From the NCBI GenBank assembly GCA_016177735.1, contig JACOUS010000030.1, positions 186,001 to 250,000 on the forward strand: a DNA stretch of 64,000 nt, given 5' to 3'. The stretch is from Ignavibacteriales bacterium. Lineage in GTDB: Bacteria; Bacteroidota; Ignavibacteria; Ignavibacteriales; Melioribacteraceae. The notes below the pieces were generated by a model. That model did no database searches. It was given only the letters and a program-made list of their open reading frames with translations, and was not told where the DNA came from. Position numbers and translations under genes: made by a program. This document shows, piece after piece, positions 55,753 to 64,000 of this stretch. Position 1 is the first letter of the stretch, and each line of letters begins with the position of its first letter.

Positions 55753-58371
55753 TTAATTTGATTTTTTCTCATCAATTTTTCTCTTGAGTTCATTTAATTT
55801 ATTTAGTGCATCCAAAGGAGTAAGCTGATCAATCGCGAGATCGGAAATTTCTTTCCGCAAAGCATCGTCTTTCATTTCAAACAAACTGATTTGCAGATTA
55901 TCCTGATTTTTCAATTTAGCAAGTTTGGCTTTTTTCACTTCGTACGGAGTCAATTCTTTGCTTTCGAGATTTGCGAGAACTTCTTTCGCACGGCTCGTAA
56001 CAAATTGCGGCAAGCCAGCCATCTGTGCAACTTGAATTCCGTAACTGTGATCTGCGCCGCCCGGCGTAACTTTGTGCAAGAAAATTACTTTATCTCCGTA
56101 TTCGCGGACTTCCACTTTAAAGTTTTTGACTCGCGGAAATAACTGAGCCATTTCATTCAACTCGTGATAGTGAGTTGCGAAGAGTGTCTTTGCATTTATG
56201 TTCGTGTTCTCGTGCAAGTATTCGGTAATTGCCCACGCAATTGAAATTCCATCGAATGTACTTGTGCCGCGCCCGATTTCATCGAGCAGTATCAAACTTT
56301 TGTCTGTTGCGTTGTTCAATATATTTGCGGCTTCTTGCATCTCTACAAGAAATGTGCTTTCGCCGGCGGAAATATTATCGCTCGCACCGACACGTGTAAA
56401 AATTCTATCAACCAAACCGACTTGCGCTTCCTTTGCCGGAATAAACGAACCGATCTGTGCAAGCAAAACAATCAATCCGATCTGGCGGAGGTAAACAGAT
56501 TTACCAGCCATGTTCGGTCCGGTTAAAATTATTATTTGTTCTTCCGATGAAGATAGTTTGCAGCTGTTCGGCGTAAATTTTTCACCCGGAGGAAGAATTC
56601 TTTCAACAACCGGATGCCGCCCTTCAATTATTTCTATCGAATCCGATTCATCGAGTTTCGGTTTTACATAATTGTATTCATCGGCACAGTCAGCAAGCGA
56701 TTGAAAGCAGTCGAGCATTGCAACCAACTGCGCATTCTCCTGAATTTCTTTTGCCGCAGATGATGCATCGGCTCTCACCTGATCAAATAATTCATATTCA
56801 AGTTTCGCAATGTTCTCCTCGGCATTCAGAATTTTATCTTCGTACTCCTTCAATTCGGGAGTGATGTACCGCTCGTTATTTACTAGTGTTTGTTTGCGGA
56901 TATAATTATCGGGAACTTTATCTTTGTTTGCGTGGCTGATTTCAATGTAATATCCGAAAATTTTGTTGTAGCCGATTTTTAGCGAAGAGATTTTTGTTCG
57001 TTCGCGTTCTGCTTTTTGCAGATTTGCAATCCAATCTTTTACGTTAGTAGATAAACTTCTCAATTCATCCAGCTTTTCGTTGTATCCATTTCGAATTACT
57101 CCGCAGTCGGAAATTGAAAGAGGCGGATCATCTGCAATTGCAAGTTCAATTTTTTCAACGAGCCAATCGAGATTATTCAAACGCTGGTTAATAGTTGTAA
57201 TTGTTTCGGCAGAAGTTTGATCTAGTAATTGTTTGATGAGCGGAATTTTTTTCAGCGAACTTTTGAGATTGAGAAGTTCACGCGGATTAATTCTTCCCGT
57301 GCAGACTTTTGATGTGAGCCTTTCAAGATCGCCGATTTCTTTTAATTCGTTCTGTAAATTTTTTCTGAGCGTTTTATTGTTGAATAATTCTTCTATCGAT
57401 TGCTGGCGTTTCAAAATCGGTTCGAGTTTTTTGAGCGGGGCGGTAACCCATTTTTTCAGCATTCTTCCGCCCATCGCAGTTTCTGTGCGGTCGAGAATCG
57501 AGAAGAGCGAACCTTCACGGTCGCCGTCGTTCATCGTAAAAGTTATTTCAAGATTTCTTTTTGTGGAGAAATCAAGAATCATGTAATCGGAAGGATTGTA
57601 CCGGGAAATTTTATTTATGTGCGGCAAATTTGCTTTCTGCGTTTCGCGTAAATAATTGAGCGCAGCACCGGCTGAGCAGATTGCTGTTCGCAGTGATTCG
57701 ATTCCGAATCCCTTCAATGTTTTTGTGTTGAAGTGATTCATTAATAATTCCGAAGCAAAATCGTAACTGTAAATCCAATCGTCAATACGCGTAATTCGCG
57801 ACTGCGGAGAAAATTTTTGAATGAGCGGTTCGAGTTCATTCTTAAATTTTTTCGGAATTAAAATCTCGGCAGCATTAATTAAACCGAGTTGTTGAATGAA
57901 TTCTTCTCTTTGTACTTCATAAGTTTGAAATTCGCCGGTCGATATATCACAGAATGAAAGTCCCGCATTTTCATCTTCAAGATAAATGGAAAGTAGGTAG
58001 TTATTTTTTTTGTGATCAAGAAGTTTATCGGAAAAAGCAACACCGGGCGTTACTACTTCAACTACATCTCTTTTAACAATTCCTTTTGCAAGTTTGGGAT
58101 CCTCAAGTTGTTCGCAGACCGCAACGCGGTATCCGGCACGCACAAGTTTCGGCAAGTAGTTGTCGATTGCATGATGCGGAAAGCCGGCAAGAGGCACGTC
58201 TCCGGCGGCGCCGTTAGCTCTCTTTGTTAATGTAATTCCGAGAACTTTCGACGCTATCTTTGCATCCTCTTCGAACGTTTCAAAGAAATCACCCATGCGG
58301 AAAAGTAAAATTGTATCCGGGTAATTCTCTTTGATCCGGGAATATTGAGCCATTAACGGCGTTACAGACAT
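55753..58371 (-). CDS. mutS: DNA mismatch repair protein MutS
   Basis: 872 aa from the ATG at 58371 (VTPLMAQYSRIKENYPD is the normal MutS beginning; an upstream in-frame ATG at 58425 adds an unlikely leader). The mismatch-binding segment is FRMGDFFETFEEDA (F-x-E). Walker A is TGPNMAGKSVYLRQIG, Walker B is LILLDEIGRGTSTFDG, and TLFATHYHELNEM follows. The clamp and connector domains lie between. The C-terminal 60 residues are the tetramerisation tail. Divergent from the downstream methyltransferase island. Confidence 0.97.
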   Translation of the reverse strand: MSVTPLMAQYSRIKENYPDTILLFRMGDFFETFEEDAKIASKVLGITLTKRANGAAGDVPLAGFPHHAIDNYLPKLVRAGYRVAVCEQLEDPKLAKGIVKRDVVEVVTPGVAFSDKLLDHKKNNYLLSIYLEDENAGLSFCDISTGEFQTYEVQREEFIQQLGLINAAEILIPKKFKNELEPLIQKFSPQSRITRIDDWIYSYDFASELLMNHFNTKTLKGFGIESLRTAICSAGAALNYLRETQKANLPHINKISRYNPSDYMILDFSTKRNLEITFTMNDGDREGSLFSILDRTETAMGGRMLKKWVTAPLKKLEPILKRQQSIEELFNNKTLRKNLQNELKEIGDLERLTSKVCTGRINPRELLNLKSSLKKIPLIKQLLDQTSAETITTINQRLNNLDWLVEKIELAIADDPPLSISDCGVIRNGYNEKLDELRSLSTNVKDWIANLQKAERERTKISSLKIGYNKIFGYYIEISHANKDKVPDNYIRKQTLVNNERYITPELKEYEDKILNAEENIAKLEYELFDQVRADASSAAKEIQENAQLVAMLDCFQSLADCADEYNYVKPKLDESDSIEIIEGRHPVVERILPPGEKFTPNSCKLSSSEEQIIILTGPNMAGKSVYLRQIGLIVLLAQIGSFIPAKEAQVGLVDRIFTRVGASDNISAGESTFLVEMQEAANILNNATDKSLILLDEIGRGTSTFDGISIAWAITEYLHENTNINAKTLFATHYHELNEMAQLFPRVKNFKVEVREYGDKVIFLHKVTPGGADHSYGIQVAQMAGLPQFVTSRAKEVLANLESKELTPYEVKKAKLAKLKNQDNLQISLFEMKDDALRKEISDLAIDQLTPLDALNKLNELKRKIDEKKSN

Positions 58372-58529
58372 AGTGAATCTTAAATTTTGGGCTAAAAATA
58401 TACAAGAATAGTGAACGAATAACAATTTGGTGATTTCATATAGTATAATGCTTTCAAGAAAAGATTATCTTGAGTATACCAATTAATCTATTTTTTTTAC
58501 ATTTTAAATGTAACCAATCAAGTGAAATA

Positions 58530-59789
58530 GTGAATAAAACGTTTACCTATGTTGATCTCTTTGCGGGGGCATCGGGTCTCTCAGAGGGTTTCCGTGTTGC
58601 TGGATTCCAACCGGTGGCTCATGTTGAAAAAGATAAATACGCATGTCTCACAATAAAAACCAGAATAGCTTATCATTATTGTAAAGAAAATAATTTTGAA
58701 GACCTTTACAAAGAGTATTATTATGAAAAGATTAACAAAGATATTTTCTATTCAGAGATTCCCTTTTATAAAACCGAAGTCGTAATCAATGAAGAAATAT
58801 CAGATGATAGATTCAATTTGATTATATCTCGAATAAATGATGCCAAAAAACAAATTGATGTGGGTGAAATAGATGTAATAATTGGTGGTCCACCTTGCCA
58901 GGCTTATTCTATAAGAGGGAGAAAAGCCAATGAGTATAAAAAAAAATATGATCAGAGAATTTATTATTACAAATTGTACGCGCGGTTTTTAAGAGAAATC
59001 AGACCGAAATTATTTGTATTCGAGAATGTTCCCGGTTTAATATCGTTTGAAGACGGCTACATTTTTGATGATTTGAGGAAAACACTGGCAGAGGAAGGGT
59101 ATAAACTCGATTATAGAATTCTGAATGCCTCGGATTTCGGTGTACTACAGGATAGAAAGCGTATCATCATTATTGGATGGAGAAAGGAATTATCGTTTTC
59201 ATATCCCGAATTTGAAAAAGTTAACTACGGTTCTAATAATATTGTTTATGATTTACTAACCGATCTCCCTTCGTTAAAACACGGCTCAAACAATCCACCA
59301 CTTTATTATGCAGGCACTCCAAACTCTTATCTTCGTGAGAGTGGAATAAGAAATGGATTACGAAAAGTAAAGTTACATAATACCAGAACGCATAATAATA
59401 TTGACATTGAAATTTACAAACGGGTGATTGAATTATGGAATGAAAAACAAAAGAGATTGAAATACAGTTCGCTGCCCAAAAGATTACGGACTCATAAAAA
59501 CATAGAAGGATTTCTTGATCGTTTTAAGGTTGTTGCCGGTGATGCAAATTATGCCCATACTCTGATAGCACATATTGCGAAAGATGGTCATTATTATATT
59601 CATCCGGATATAAATCAATGTAGATCAATTTCAGTTCGGGAAGCCGCCCGGATCCAATCTTTCCCTGATAATTTTATTTTTGAGGGACCAAGAACATCTA
59701 ATTTTACTCAGATAGGAAATGCAGTACCTCCTTTAATGTCCAAAGAGATTGGAAGAAAGATAAAAGATATATTATGTCAAAAAGCATAA
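58530..59789 (+). CDS. DNA (cytosine-5) methyltransferase
   Basis: 419 aa from the GTG at 58530, placing the fold start (TFTYVDLFAGASGLSEGF, motif I) near the N-terminus; a TTG at 58470 would add 20 residues. Motif IV with the nucleophile Cys is IIGGPPCQAYSIRG, motif VI is FVFENVPG, motif VIII is QDRKRIIIIG, motif IX region is SISVREAARIQSFPDNF and motif X is QIGNAVPPLM. All catalytic motifs are intact. The short target-recognition region lies around residues 240-340; the target sequence cannot be predicted. It overlaps the GHKL gene by 16 bp, starting a four-gene AT-rich island. Confidence 0.95.
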   Translation: MNKTFTYVDLFAGASGLSEGFRVAGFQPVAHVEKDKYACLTIKTRIAYHYCKENNFEDLYKEYYYEKINKDIFYSEIPFYKTEVVINEEISDDRFNLIISRINDAKKQIDVGEIDVIIGGPPCQAYSIRGRKANEYKKKYDQRIYYYKLYARFLREIRPKLFVFENVPGLISFEDGYIFDDLRKTLAEEGYKLDYRILNASDFGVLQDRKRIIIIGWRKELSFSYPEFEKVNYGSNNIVYDLLTDLPSLKHGSNNPPLYYAGTPNSYLRESGIRNGLRKVKLHNTRTHNNIDIEIYKRVIELWNEKQKRLKYSSLPKRLRTHKNIEGFLDRFKVVAGDANYAHTLIAHIAKDGHYYIHPDINQCRSISVREAARIQSFPDNFIFEGPRTSNFTQIGNAVPPLMSKEIGRKIKDILCQKA

Positions 59790-61933
59790 CTAAAAAAGAC
59801 AATGAAATTCAAGTTACTTTTAAACCTCGTGCAAGATTACTCTTGCAGCTGGGTGATCAGCTTATCAAGAATGAGAGTATTGCTCTAATTGAATTAGTAA
59901 AAAATTCCTACGATGCGGATGCTACAAAAGTCGAAGTATATATGGAAAATGTTGAGGATTTAGTTAATGGCATAATCATTATTGAAGATGACGGTTATGG
60001 TATGGATGAGAATACAGTTGCAAATGTATGGATGGAACCGGGTAGTGATTTTAAGTCAAAGCAATTCGAACGGCGTGAAGTAAGTCCAAAATTTAAGAGA
60101 CTTCCTATAGGTGAAAAGGGTATTGGCAGATTTGGTGCTCATAAACTTGGCAATCAAATTGAAATGACAACAAAAAAAATGGGTTCAAGAGAGGTTTATA
60201 TTAAAATCGATTGGACACTTTTTAATAGATATAAATATTTAAACGAGGTACCTTTATCATTCCTTGTGAGGGAACAACCTTTACTATTCAAAAATGGGAA
60301 GACGGGTACTAACATTACCATTAGTAATTTAAGAAAGGAATGGACCCGCGGAGTGGCAAGAGATGTTAAACGTGCAATAACCTCACTTGTTTCTCCATTC
60401 GAAAAACATGAGTCTTTTGTGGCTGAGTTCGATATCACTGATAAACCTAAATGGTTTGATGGACTTTTAGAATGGAAAGATGTCAAACATTTTTCCTTAT
60501 ATCACTTTAGGGCAATCCTAAAAGATAATTCTATTGTGAGAGTCGATTACGAATTCACACCATGGGCTTCCATGTCAAAATTACCCGCCAGAAAAATAAA
60601 ATATCATCTAGAAAAAAAGACAAATTCTGGTTTTTATGATTCTGAGGAAAAATTAGTTGATAAACTATCTCAATTTGAAGATAGTGAAGGTAATTATATT
60701 TCTTTAGAAAAATATGATATTGGAGAGATTGTTTTTGAAGGATATGTTTTCGATAGAGATGCGTTTATTCTTAAACTTGGTGTTGCTGATAAAAAAGGTT
60801 TCAAACAATATCTTGATAAAAATTGTGGAGTTAGAGTTTTCAGAGATGGTCTGCGTGTTTATGATTATGGTGAACCTGAAGACGATTGGCTCGGGTTAGA
60901 TTTAAGAAGGGTTAACCAGCCTTCAAAAAGATTAAGCAATAATATTGTATTAGGGGCGGTATATCTGAATCGGACTTCAAGTTTTTCTTTAGAGGAAAAA
61001 ACTAATAGAGAAGGATTTAAAGAAAATGAAGCTTATGATATCTTTAAAAATTCTGTTATCCATACACTTAGTATAATTGAAATATTTCGTTATAGTGATA
61101 AACAAAGATTAAGAGAAATTTATGGCCCTACGCCTAAATCTGAACCTGTTTTGCAGTTGTTAGGCGATCTAAAGAATTATATTGATAAAAAAATAAAAGA
61201 CGAAGTTATCAATGATGAAATAACAAAATATTTAGGTAAGATTGAATCAGATTACAAGAAAATTAATGAAAATTTGTTAATGGCTGCTGGTGCTGGTTTA
61301 AGTATGAGTGTTGTTATTCATGAAGTTGAGAAAATAATCCTAGAAGTTGAAAAAGTGTTGATAGCAGAGAAGGGGTCTGAACGAGTAATTAAATTAGTAA
61401 AACATCTTTCATCCTTAATCGATGGCTATGCTGAAATAATTAAAAAATCTTCGCAAACCTCCGAAAATATTCTTGAAATATTAGATCAAGCTCTATTTAA
61501 TACTGAATACAGACTCAGCGTTCATAAGATTAAAGTTATTAAGGCTTATAAAAACTACGACGGCAAAACAAAAACAAAATTAGCCAGAAATTTATTGATT
61601 GGCAGTTTAATGAATATAATTGATAATTCTATTTATTGGTTAGAGAAAGGAAAGATTATAAATAAAAAATTGTTTTTTGATCTTTCAGAAGAAGACAATT
61701 ACACCAATATAGTTATAGCTGACAATGGAACTGGATTCTTACTTCCAACTGATGAAATAGTTGAACCATTTGTTTCTGCTAAACCTGGTGGTATGGGTTT
61801 AGGATTACATATTGCTAATGAAATAATGTCTTCGCAAGGTGGAAAATTATCCTTTCCTGATTGGGGTGATTATGATATACCTAATGGCTTTAAAGGTGGT
61901 GCTATAATAGTCTTAAGTTTTAAAAACAAATAG
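59774..61933 (+). CDS. Double GHKL ATPase: MORC/MutL-like N-terminus plus histidine-kinase-like C-terminus
   Basis: 719 aa. The N-terminal GHKL domain has N-box E40-LVKNSYDADA, G1 motif D73-GYGM and GEKGIGRFGAHKLG (G2, as in MutL, Hsp90 and MORC). A middle S5-like domain (about 220-430) follows. The C-terminal part has H516-EVEKI, a typical H-box, then a helical region, a second N-box (N614-IIDNSIYWLE), D650-NGTGF and GGMGLGLHIANEI. So one chain joins a MORC-like clamp ATPase to a histidine-kinase catalytic unit. No membrane segment is seen, so it is cytosolic. It overlaps the methyltransferase gene and precedes a receiver-like gene by 8 bp. Phosphorelay is inferred. Confidence 0.88.
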   Translation: MSKSITKKDNEIQVTFKPRARLLLQLGDQLIKNESIALIELVKNSYDADATKVEVYMENVEDLVNGIIIIEDDGYGMDENTVANVWMEPGSDFKSKQFERREVSPKFKRLPIGEKGIGRFGAHKLGNQIEMTTKKMGSREVYIKIDWTLFNRYKYLNEVPLSFLVREQPLLFKNGKTGTNITISNLRKEWTRGVARDVKRAITSLVSPFEKHESFVAEFDITDKPKWFDGLLEWKDVKHFSLYHFRAILKDNSIVRVDYEFTPWASMSKLPARKIKYHLEKKTNSGFYDSEEKLVDKLSQFEDSEGNYISLEKYDIGEIVFEGYVFDRDAFILKLGVADKKGFKQYLDKNCGVRVFRDGLRVYDYGEPEDDWLGLDLRRVNQPSKRLSNNIVLGAVYLNRTSSFSLEEKTNREGFKENEAYDIFKNSVIHTLSIIEIFRYSDKQRLREIYGPTPKSEPVLQLLGDLKNYIDKKIKDEVINDEITKYLGKIESDYKKINENLLMAAGAGLSMSVVIHEVEKIILEVEKVLIAEKGSERVIKLVKHLSSLIDGYAEIIKKSSQTSENILEILDQALFNTEYRLSVHKIKVIKAYKNYDGKTKTKLARNLLIGSLMNIIDNSIYWLEKGKIINKKLFFDLSEEDNYTNIVIADNGTGFLLPTDEIVEPFVSAKPGGMGLGLHIANEIMSSQGGKLSFPDWGDYDIPNGFKGGAIIVLSFKNK

Positions 61934-61941
61934 GTAATAAT

Positions 61942-63228
61942 ATGCAGTTACCATTTAATGGTAGAATTATAATCATTGATGATAATATTGAAGAAACCAA
62001 ACCGCTTATAGAAATTCTTTCAAAGAAAAGAATTCCCTTCAATTACTATTCTGGCACGAATCAGAATGAATTCCCCGATAATAATACAGCCAATAAACTA
62101 CGGGTTCTTTTTCTAGATTTAAATATTTTTGAACTTAATAAAGATGCTAAAACAGTAATTAGTTCAATTCATGGCATATTAACAAGTTTTATACCGGATA
62201 ATCCAAGCCCGTATTTATTAATTATTTGGAGTAAACAAGACAAAGAATATAAACATGCTTTAGAAGATCACTTCAAAAATATAATACCCCTAAAAACTCC
62301 TTCTGAAATAATATTTTTATCAAAATCAAAATATTTCGATTACGTTGATAGCAAGTGGGTTCCCCAAACTGATTGTATCAATAAACTGACAACAGATCTT
62401 ACATTAAAACTAGATAACATTTCCTTTTTGCGAAATCTAATTCGCTGGGAAAATATTGTTCATGAATCAACTACGAAAACAATAAATGAAATATCAAGTT
62501 TTTATCCTCAAAATCAAGATTGGAATAAAAATACTTTGGCAATCATATATAAGTTAGCAAAATCAATTATTGGTAATGATGATATTTTGTCGACTGAGAA
62601 TGAACAAAAATTTAAAAAAGCATTTATTCATATAAATAGCTTATTATTTGATAATGTCGAAAACTTTGTTTCAGAATCCGGATTAGGTAATACTACAAAT
62701 ATAATAGACGGCAGAATTGATGAGGAAATTAGTATTCAAATAAATACTAAACTTCATACTAATAACAAGAATTTTTTAATTGATTCGTTTGAGCCGGGCA
62801 ATTTATATTTACTTCCAATCATAAGAAATGAGCTTAATACAATTATTAGAAAAAAAGTGTTCAAGGGAAAATACGACTCATTGATGTCTTCTTTTCCTTG
62901 GTTGGTGGAGTTAGATATTACGCCGATTTGTGATTATTCACAAGATAAAGAATATATCCGTACAATATTAGGCTTGGCTTTAAGTTATGAACAAAGAAAT
63001 ATCTGCGAAAAAAAAGGAGACTATTTTTATTTAACGCCAACATTTAAATTCAATTGTCAAAATAGATTCTTTTTATTTGATTTTCGTCAAATAAAAACAA
63101 CATCAAAAGAAGAAATTAAATCTCGAAAAATTATTCCAATACTTAAATTACGTCGTGAGTTGTGCTCCGACATTCAAGCAAGATTATCAAATCAAATTAA
63201 TAGACCTGGTGTTAGCTTCGTTGAATAA
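61942..63228 (+). CDS. Receiver-like protein with uncharacterised C-terminal region
   Basis: 428 aa. The N-terminal 120 residues resemble a response-regulator receiver: RIIIIDDNIEETKPLIEIL with acidic D13-D14, the phosphoacceptor candidate D59 in VLFLDLNIF, and LLIIWSKQDKEY in the position of the T/S and K motifs. The remaining 300 residues are helical with no DNA-binding motif that I recognise (NLIRWENIVHESTTKTINE, RNELNTIIRKKVFKGKYDS). Very AT-rich, unlike flanking genes. It starts 8 bp after the double-GHKL gene and is probably its partner. Confidence 0.72.
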   Translation: MQLPFNGRIIIIDDNIEETKPLIEILSKKRIPFNYYSGTNQNEFPDNNTANKLRVLFLDLNIFELNKDAKTVISSIHGILTSFIPDNPSPYLLIIWSKQDKEYKHALEDHFKNIIPLKTPSEIIFLSKSKYFDYVDSKWVPQTDCINKLTTDLTLKLDNISFLRNLIRWENIVHESTTKTINEISSFYPQNQDWNKNTLAIIYKLAKSIIGNDDILSTENEQKFKKAFIHINSLLFDNVENFVSESGLGNTTNIIDGRIDEEISIQINTKLHTNNKNFLIDSFEPGNLYLLPIIRNELNTIIRKKVFKGKYDSLMSSFPWLVELDITPICDYSQDKEYIRTILGLALSYEQRNICEKKGDYFYLTPTFKFNCQNRFFLFDFRQIKTTSKEEIKSRKIIPILKLRRELCSDIQARLSNQINRPGVSFVE

Positions 63229-63257
63229 CCAAAATCATTTTTAAAGGATGTTATGAT

Positions 63258-63890
63258 TTGTTTTATGTTAAAATTTTAAATTGGTTCAAAGTTAATAAAA
63301 GATATTTCATTTGGAGGGAAAACCCTACTCCTTATAAAATCATGATCGCTGAGTTCATGCTTCAACGAACGAAAGCAGCACAGGTTGAACCGGTTTATAA
63401 AAAATTTCTGAAACAATATCCTGAAGTTCTTTCACTCTCAAAAGCTAGAATCAGAAGTGTTGAGAAATATACTGCCTCACTTGGTCTTCATAAACGGGCT
63501 CGAAATTTCATTGATGCTGCAAGATATATAGTAGAAAATTTCAAAGATGAATACCCCAAGACAAGAAAGAAGTTATTGAGCATTCCTGGTGCTGGTGATT
63601 ATGTTGCGGGTGCAATTATGGCTGTATGTTATAATAATGCTGATTATGTTATTGATAGCAACATAGCCCGCTTTATTAATAGATTTTATGGTTTAAAACT
63701 TTACGGTGAGGTTAGGCGTAAAAAATTAATAATTGCAAAAGCGATGGAGATTTTCAAAACAAGTAACCAAAAGGAATTTTTATTTGCTCTACTTGATTTT
63801 ACAGCATTGATTTGCAAACCAATAAGACCGGGATGCTGTGATTGTCCGCTCAACAGTAAATGTAAGTATGAAGGTAAATTAGCATTGTAA
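63258..63890 (+). CDS. HhH-GPD DNA glycosylase, MIG/thymine-DNA-glycosylase type with 4Fe-4S cluster
   Basis: 210 aa, TTG start with AAAGGA about 9 bp upstream; no in-frame ATG is available. PYKIMIAEFMLQRTKAAQVEPVY is the MutY/MIG helix, and LLSIPGAGDYVAGAIMAVCY is the helix-hairpin-helix. At the position of the EndoIII catalytic Lys there is Tyr (GAGDY), as in the thermophile mismatch glycosylase MIG. The catalytic Asp is in YVIDSNIARFINR. The cluster ligands are intact as C-x6-C-x2-C-x5-C. MIG excises T from G-T mismatches, and its gene is plasmid-linked to a C5 methyltransferase; the same linkage is seen here. MutY-like A-G activity is the alternative. Confidence 0.88.
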   Translation: MFYVKILNWFKVNKRYFIWRENPTPYKIMIAEFMLQRTKAAQVEPVYKKFLKQYPEVLSLSKARIRSVEKYTASLGLHKRARNFIDAARYIVENFKDEYPKTRKKLLSIPGAGDYVAGAIMAVCYNNADYVIDSNIARFINRFYGLKLYGEVRRKKLIIAKAMEIFKTSNQKEFLFALLDFTALICKPIRPGCCDCPLNSKCKYEGKLAL

Positions 63891-64000
63891 ATACTTCTGT
63901 ACCGTACCATCAACTGATTAATCTCATAATTAATTATATTGTGCACAACAACTATCTTTTCTTGAATATGAAAATGAAAACGATCCAACTTTCGAGCAAG

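Follow-up and report, generated by a model that had tools for sequence, protein, structure and literature searches.

In 2021 Bellieny-Rabelo et al. described a protein pair, HEF_HK and Response_reg_2 (PF19191/PF19192), that is linked to C5 methylases and Vsr; a glycosylase is not mentioned in their paper (PMC8011034). Iyer et al. in 2008 had reported MORC/paraMORC restriction-modification loci with Dcm and Vsr (PMC2292703), and CapK/CapS contains a proven GHKL kinase, activated by single-stranded DNA, that controls defence operons (PMC13373217). The present analysis concerns a four-gene island at positions 58530-63890 of a 64,000-nucleotide stretch of DNA (the window) from an Ignavibacteriales bacterium (contig JACOUS010000030.1), which encodes a C5-cytosine DNA methyltransferase, a double-GHKL kinase-like protein, a receiver-like protein and a mismatch glycosylase. 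We put the chance at about one in two that the island is a mobile, methylation-centred phosphorelay module, directed against phages or plasmids, in which the glycosylase replaces Vsr. The gene set, its insertion, its recurrence, the conserved phosphorelay residues and the alternation of Vsr with glycosylase were obtained by computation.

The positions and spacing of the four plus-strand genes, as listed in an earlier note on this DNA, were borne out; the features are as follows.

58530..59789, plus strand: C5-cytosine DNA methyltransferase, 419 amino acids, GTG start; an in-frame TTG lies at 58470.
59774..61933, plus strand: double-GHKL kinase-like protein, 719 amino acids; 16-bp overlap with the methylase gene.
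61319..61321, plus strand: codon of His516, the putative phosphoacceptor, in a HEVE motif preceding the C-terminal HATPase_c; His in 88/88 and the next Glu in 87/88 homologues.
61942..63228, plus strand: receiver-like protein, 428 amino acids in three parts; 8-bp gap after the double-GHKL gene.
61942..62370, plus strand: receiver domain, residues 1-143, with Asp13/Asp14 pocket, phosphoacceptor Asp59, Ser97 and Lys128, assigned from conservation and predicted fold.
62794..63216, plus strand: C-terminal domain, residues 285-425, a predicted MazF/PemK-like barrel and candidate output, from predicted structure and conserved residues.
63258..63890, plus strand: MIG-type HhH-GPD mismatch glycosylase, 210 amino acids, TTG start; 29-bp gap after the receiver-like gene.
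58431..64000, plus strand: inserted island; homology to relatives ends at 58430 on the left.
55753..58371, minus strand: flanking mutS, the left border, outside the system.

Since the HEF_HK/Response_reg_2 pair was described in 2021, the core of the module has a precedent. The earlier note had known of no system with this set, which holds for the exact four genes, not found described in the papers searched (a subscription-only or unpublished description is possible), but not for the core, which has described relatives in that pair and in the MORC/paraMORC loci. The kind of module is thus already described and, as far as the literature found shows, experimentally untouched. With the 2021 pair the family of the island pair shares the domain series HATPase_c_3, His helix and HATPase_c, an adjoining receiver-like protein with the residues D/D-D-T-K beside the kinase, and C5 methylase, Vsr and HNH_2 neighbours. 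HEF_HK and the window-family kinase show collinear similarity in blastp, and the window-family and Response_reg_2 receiver profiles align weakly in hhalign (probability 38%, E 3e-4, receiver part only). The window proteins gave no match to PF19191 or PF19192 at E 1; neither family is among those listed for 14 kinases, and none is listed for 87 receivers (among the 25 families with most members out of 38). The protein pair of locus L042, the positive control of this test, matches both. Because the island pair fails the two models we call it a sister family and not a member; this family, for which there is no Pfam model, looks like HEF_HK/Response_reg_2 and probably works like it. New are this unmodelled sister family, a variable fourth gene, many loci having Vsr where the window and six more have a MIG-type glycosylase, and a candidate output domain at the C-terminus of the receiver protein.

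MORC/paraMORC loci are alike in having an N-terminal GHKL ATPase beside Dcm-type methylases, Vsr and nucleases, but their proteins combine GHKL with S5 and are accompanied by helicases and nucleases, whereas the island has a second, kinase-type GHKL, a receiver partner and no helicase. CapK/CapS likewise consists of a GHKL kinase and a phosphorylated partner encoded with defence genes; however, CapS is a serine substrate with a STAS domain and a winged helix-turn-helix, whereas the partner in the island is a receiver with a phosphoacceptor Asp, and we regard the two as analogous only. The resemblance to the model NF050001 of the BbrUII/HgiDII restriction enzymes (78 bits) is limited to the N-terminal GHKL, residues 23-202, and is far under the cut-off of 550 bits.

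According to Pfam the double-GHKL protein is composed of an N-terminal HATPase_c_3 (residues 36-148; 3e-19), a middle domain and a C-terminal HATPase_c of the histidine-kinase type (residues 612-715; 1e-11). Both Bergerat motif sets are invariant across 88 kinase homologues, namely E40, N44, D72-x-G-x-G-M and GEKGxGR in the N-terminal ATP site and N614, D617-N618, D650-x-G-x-G and GxGxG in the C-terminal one. The receiver-like protein matched no Pfam family. Its AlphaFold2 model has a predicted local distance difference test score (pLDDT) of 92.9, and in Foldseek the predicted receiver fold matches the response regulators PorX and FixJ and the receiver domain 3lte. Among 87 receivers D59 and S/T97 are found in all, D13 and K128 in 86 each. 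The near-invariant His/Asp/Asp/Ser-Thr/Lys residues together with the confidently predicted receiver fold make phosphotransfer from the GHKL protein to the receiver protein, as the earlier note had supposed, likely. Sequence conservation and model are strong evidence that kinase and receiver are competent for a phosphorelay; they say nothing on the trigger.

When the kinase alignment was scanned over 84,980 species genomes, 78 loci from many phyla were kept. In 76 the receiver gene adjoins the kinase gene and in 63 there is a C5 methylase no more than 1.5 kb away, the most frequent gene order being methylase, kinase, receiver; the usual fourth gene is Vsr. The phylum distribution is patchy (receiver homologues in 10/396 genomes, kinase homologues in 12/297), 20 IMG/VR contigs matched the kinase alignment, and the module is also present on plasmids of Rhizobium, Agrobacterium, Burkholderia and Campylobacter. 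In the 3.87-Mb genome containing the window, homology to relatives stops near 58430 at the latest and resumes near 64038, just past the window end, from which we conclude that about 5.6 kb has been cleanly inserted here. Between these borders the three nearest relatives carry about 0.2-0.8 kb, a genome of the same genus is without the island, and mutS and an alpha-amylase-family gene, present in 20/20 relatives tested, are usually divergent direct neighbours a few hundred bases apart. The empty site in relatives, the plasmid carriage and the IMG/VR contigs show that the module is horizontally mobile, and support what the earlier note had taken for a DNA-modification module as a horizontally acquired C5-methylation module.

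The exchange of glycosylase for Vsr is our firmest new result. Of the 78 loci, 34 have Vsr within 6 kb of the kinase gene, 6 have a glycosylase resembling the window's, and none has both; the six are from Ignavibacteria, Cloacimonadota, Spirochaetia, Aminicenantes and two unassigned bacteria. The glycosylase of the island (Pfam HhH-GPD, 7e-11) has the iron-sulphur motif C-X6-C-X2-C-X5-C, is without the C-terminal 8-oxoguanine (8-oxoG) domain of MutY, and finds its best PDB match in 1kea, the MIG of Methanobacterium (3e-32). Like this enzyme and its relatives on plasmids of Thermus and Caldicellulosiruptor, it is an HhH-GPD glycosylase with an iron-sulphur motif encoded beside a C5 methylase. 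The difference is that the in-operon glycosylases travel with the kinase/receiver pair and that those of the window and the six other loci form one clade (support 100/97), separate from the MIGs of Methanobacterium, Thermus and Caldicellulosiruptor, in a tree that includes only one MutY. In the tree of the 88 kinases the glycosylase loci are scattered, and the glycosylase label changes at least four times on branches with good support: L044, which has Vsr, is sister to the window and L054, which have the glycosylase (99% in the SH-like approximate likelihood-ratio test), and L064 with glycosylase pairs with L063 with Vsr. Vsr was searched for in the window's genome and none was found, and the island methylase is the only C5 methylase there, which together with the alternation supports the earlier idea of the glycosylase as a guardian against deamination of 5-methylcytosine. 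The simplest reading of these sequences is that two unrelated repair enzymes have repeatedly been exchanged for the same lesion, the T:G mismatch arising from deaminated 5-methylcytosine.

In the mechanism that we propose the methylase would mark a cytosine motif, and the double-GHKL and receiver proteins would form a soluble two-component phosphorelay. A cue, probably linked to DNA, would cause the C-terminal kinase to phosphorylate His516, from which the phosphate would move to Asp59 of the receiver protein; the phosphorylated receiver may then switch its own MazF/PemK-like C-terminal domain, a nuclease whose gene some loci have close by, or both. Removal of T from the T:G mismatches, the job of Vsr in many related loci, would fall to the glycosylase. 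The defence role, the cue, the phosphotransfer and the output are what we infer. As to the output, residues 252-428 modelled alone gave a pLDDT of 92, and Foldseek matched the C-terminal domain in the PDB to three chains of MazF-mt3 (probability 0.91-0.95, E about 0.2, TM-score by target 0.59-0.65; other matches were of low probability) and in a viral library to a phage endoribonuclease (probability 0.95); over the two libraries E was 0.14-0.25. Within the C-terminal region Cys330 is conserved throughout, with Asp331, Gly286 and Asn268 close to invariant. To judge from the model, the domain is a probable MazF/PemK-like barrel and the best candidate for the output. A phosphorelay-gated output of MazF fold is the most interesting and the least secure point of the proposal. 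Taken further, it would give restriction-modification without a nuclease: the GHKL kinase would detect incoming or unmethylated DNA and phosphorylate the receiver, the MazF-fold domain would be a toxic or DNA/RNA-acting effector, and a dedicated glycosylase clade, repeatedly replacing Vsr, would protect the methylated host; this version we consider rather doubtful.

Several findings speak against a defence module of this design or qualify parts of it. The MazF-like fold rests on a Foldseek probability of 0.91-0.95 with an E of about 0.2, the link to MazF sequence profiles is not significant (hhalign probability 0.2%), and the expected catalytic Arg/Thr positions of MazF, which were inferred from fold topology, are not conserved. 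The lack of any co-occurrence of Vsr and glycosylase is only modestly unlikely by chance, since about 2.6 would be expected among 78 loci, which moreover are related. The active-site Tyr of the glycosylase is also present in some MutY proteins; as two MutY proteins of the phylum have Tyr there, this residue was dropped as a marker of MIG versus MutY. In the window's genome no MutY exceeds the curated cut-off, and the highest-ranking MutY-like protein there is the island glycosylase. Finally, the island of the window is without a nuclease. The earlier note had considered that one might follow downstream, but the DNA beyond 64000 did not bear this out, the first gene there being that of a 1225-aa alpha-amylase-family protein on the plus strand. 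Neither the island nor this next gene provides a nuclease, so the methylase plus cognate nuclease of a type II restriction-modification system are not found together; no nuclease gene belongs to the island.

Elsewhere nucleases do accompany the module. An HNH_2 nuclease gene touches the receiver gene in 8/78 loci, among them L075, which also has a glycosylase, and these eight loci link the module to restriction; in the HEF_HK-type locus L042 HNH_2 is at the same place. Other loci lie near genes for XhoI, EcoO109I, HNH_5, GmrSD_N or other nucleases, and on Rhizobium plasmids an annotated type II enzyme is found alongside. The XhoI and EcoO109I genes were not counted as parts of the module, since they probably come from adjacent systems that have methylases themselves. 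A scan of genes flanking the operon recognised no nuclease in L054, L062 or L064, and in L065 an unrelated AAA/PD-(D/E)XK gene lies about 0.8 kb away on the opposite strand. The nuclease is thus optional, and either the kinase/receiver pair is active on its own or the version in the window does no more than methylate. The differing nucleases, and the precedent of CapK over its defence operons, would also suit a pair that is a regulator tuning the methylase and a restriction nuclease beside it or elsewhere, the window's nuclease having been lost and orphan methylation with a repair enzyme being left. We give this explanation a real but clearly smaller chance than the phosphorelay module, since kinase and receiver are intact in most loci though no recognised nuclease adjoins, and the extra conserved domain of the receiver protein models as a beta-barrel and not as a helix-turn-helix. 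An accessory role of the MutL/MORC kind, with the N-terminal GHKL as a DNA clamp or loop-former that helps in methylation or in very-short-patch repair, much as MutL does for Vsr, and with phosphotransfer secondary, is unlikely: MORC2 is the closest PDB structure to this domain, MORC/paraMORC were tied to Dcm and Vsr by Iyer et al., and a repair gene belongs to the locus, but the C-terminal half is of the histidine-kinase type, its His, N, G1 and G2 boxes being invariant, the receiver that partners it has all five key residues, and near about half of the loci a repair gene was not found.

The glycosylase could also be an adenine glycosylase of the MutY type, or a general repair gene, that came into the island by chance. 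It scores 159 bits against the mutY model, and because the genome is without a MutY above the cut-off a role on adenine is conceivable. That score, however, is under the MutY cut-off, the C-terminal 8-oxoG domain is missing, L[QH]RT stands in place of LQQT, the closest solved structure is a MIG, and the gene is in the same operon at six other loci, none with Vsr, all of which makes this explanation slightly less probable even than the MutL/MORC-like one. A DISARM or DISARM-derived locus is most improbable. It was suggested by the methylase (Pfam DNA_methylase, 2e-62; motifs FAGASG, GGPPCQ, FENVPG and QIGNAVPP), whose best PADLOC match is PDLC02649 (DrmMII) with 536 bits, and was rejected because drmA/drmB/drmC genes are absent beside the operon: the island has no helicase, DUF1998 or PLD gene, and the whole genome no MZB/DUF1998 domain. 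PDLC02649 is also the best match of each of the other methylases tested (L045, L054 and L075), so that the four are of one type, which accompanies the GHKL/receiver pair repeatedly. The model responds very strongly to the methylase of the kinase/receiver module, and DISARM calls resting on PDLC02649 alone may be mislabelled.

If the phosphorelay module is what we think it is, a defence system based on methylation is under the direct control of histidine-aspartate phosphorelay, the chief signalling chemistry of bacteria. A C5 methylase would then also have either of two repair partners, the mismatch endonuclease Vsr or a base-excision glycosylase, in a clean natural case of one function replacing another. 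H516, D59 and C330 are targets for point mutations that make a long-predicted system directly testable.

The four genes form a compact AT-rich operon between mutS, from which they diverge as the earlier note had seen, and the alpha-amylase-family gene. Their GC content (0.28-0.34) and GC at third codon positions (GC3, 0.21-0.27) are lower than in any of the 33 long open frames elsewhere in the window, none of which is under 0.368 in GC or 0.303 in GC3, in agreement with the same note. No Rfam elements were found in 55-64 kb and no terminators in a search for them, and promoter-like sites were no more frequent than chance.

In L047, L074, L076, L097, L100 and L102 genes for a MORC-like ATPase and for Z1-like, PD-(D/E)XK-like and AIPR-like proteins, named partly by eye, are found after or near the kinase/receiver pair, two GHKL systems standing back to back. 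An archaeal contig (OY282369.1, titled uncultured Cenarchaeum; L072 and L079) has several kinase and receiver homologues close together in one locus. Downstream of the island and outside the window, minus-strand nucleotidyltransferase-like and HEPN-like genes (L003:12181-13004) resemble, by eye, an MNT/HEPN toxin-antitoxin pair, beside which lies a gene that, also by eye, is TIR-like (L003:13022-13885).

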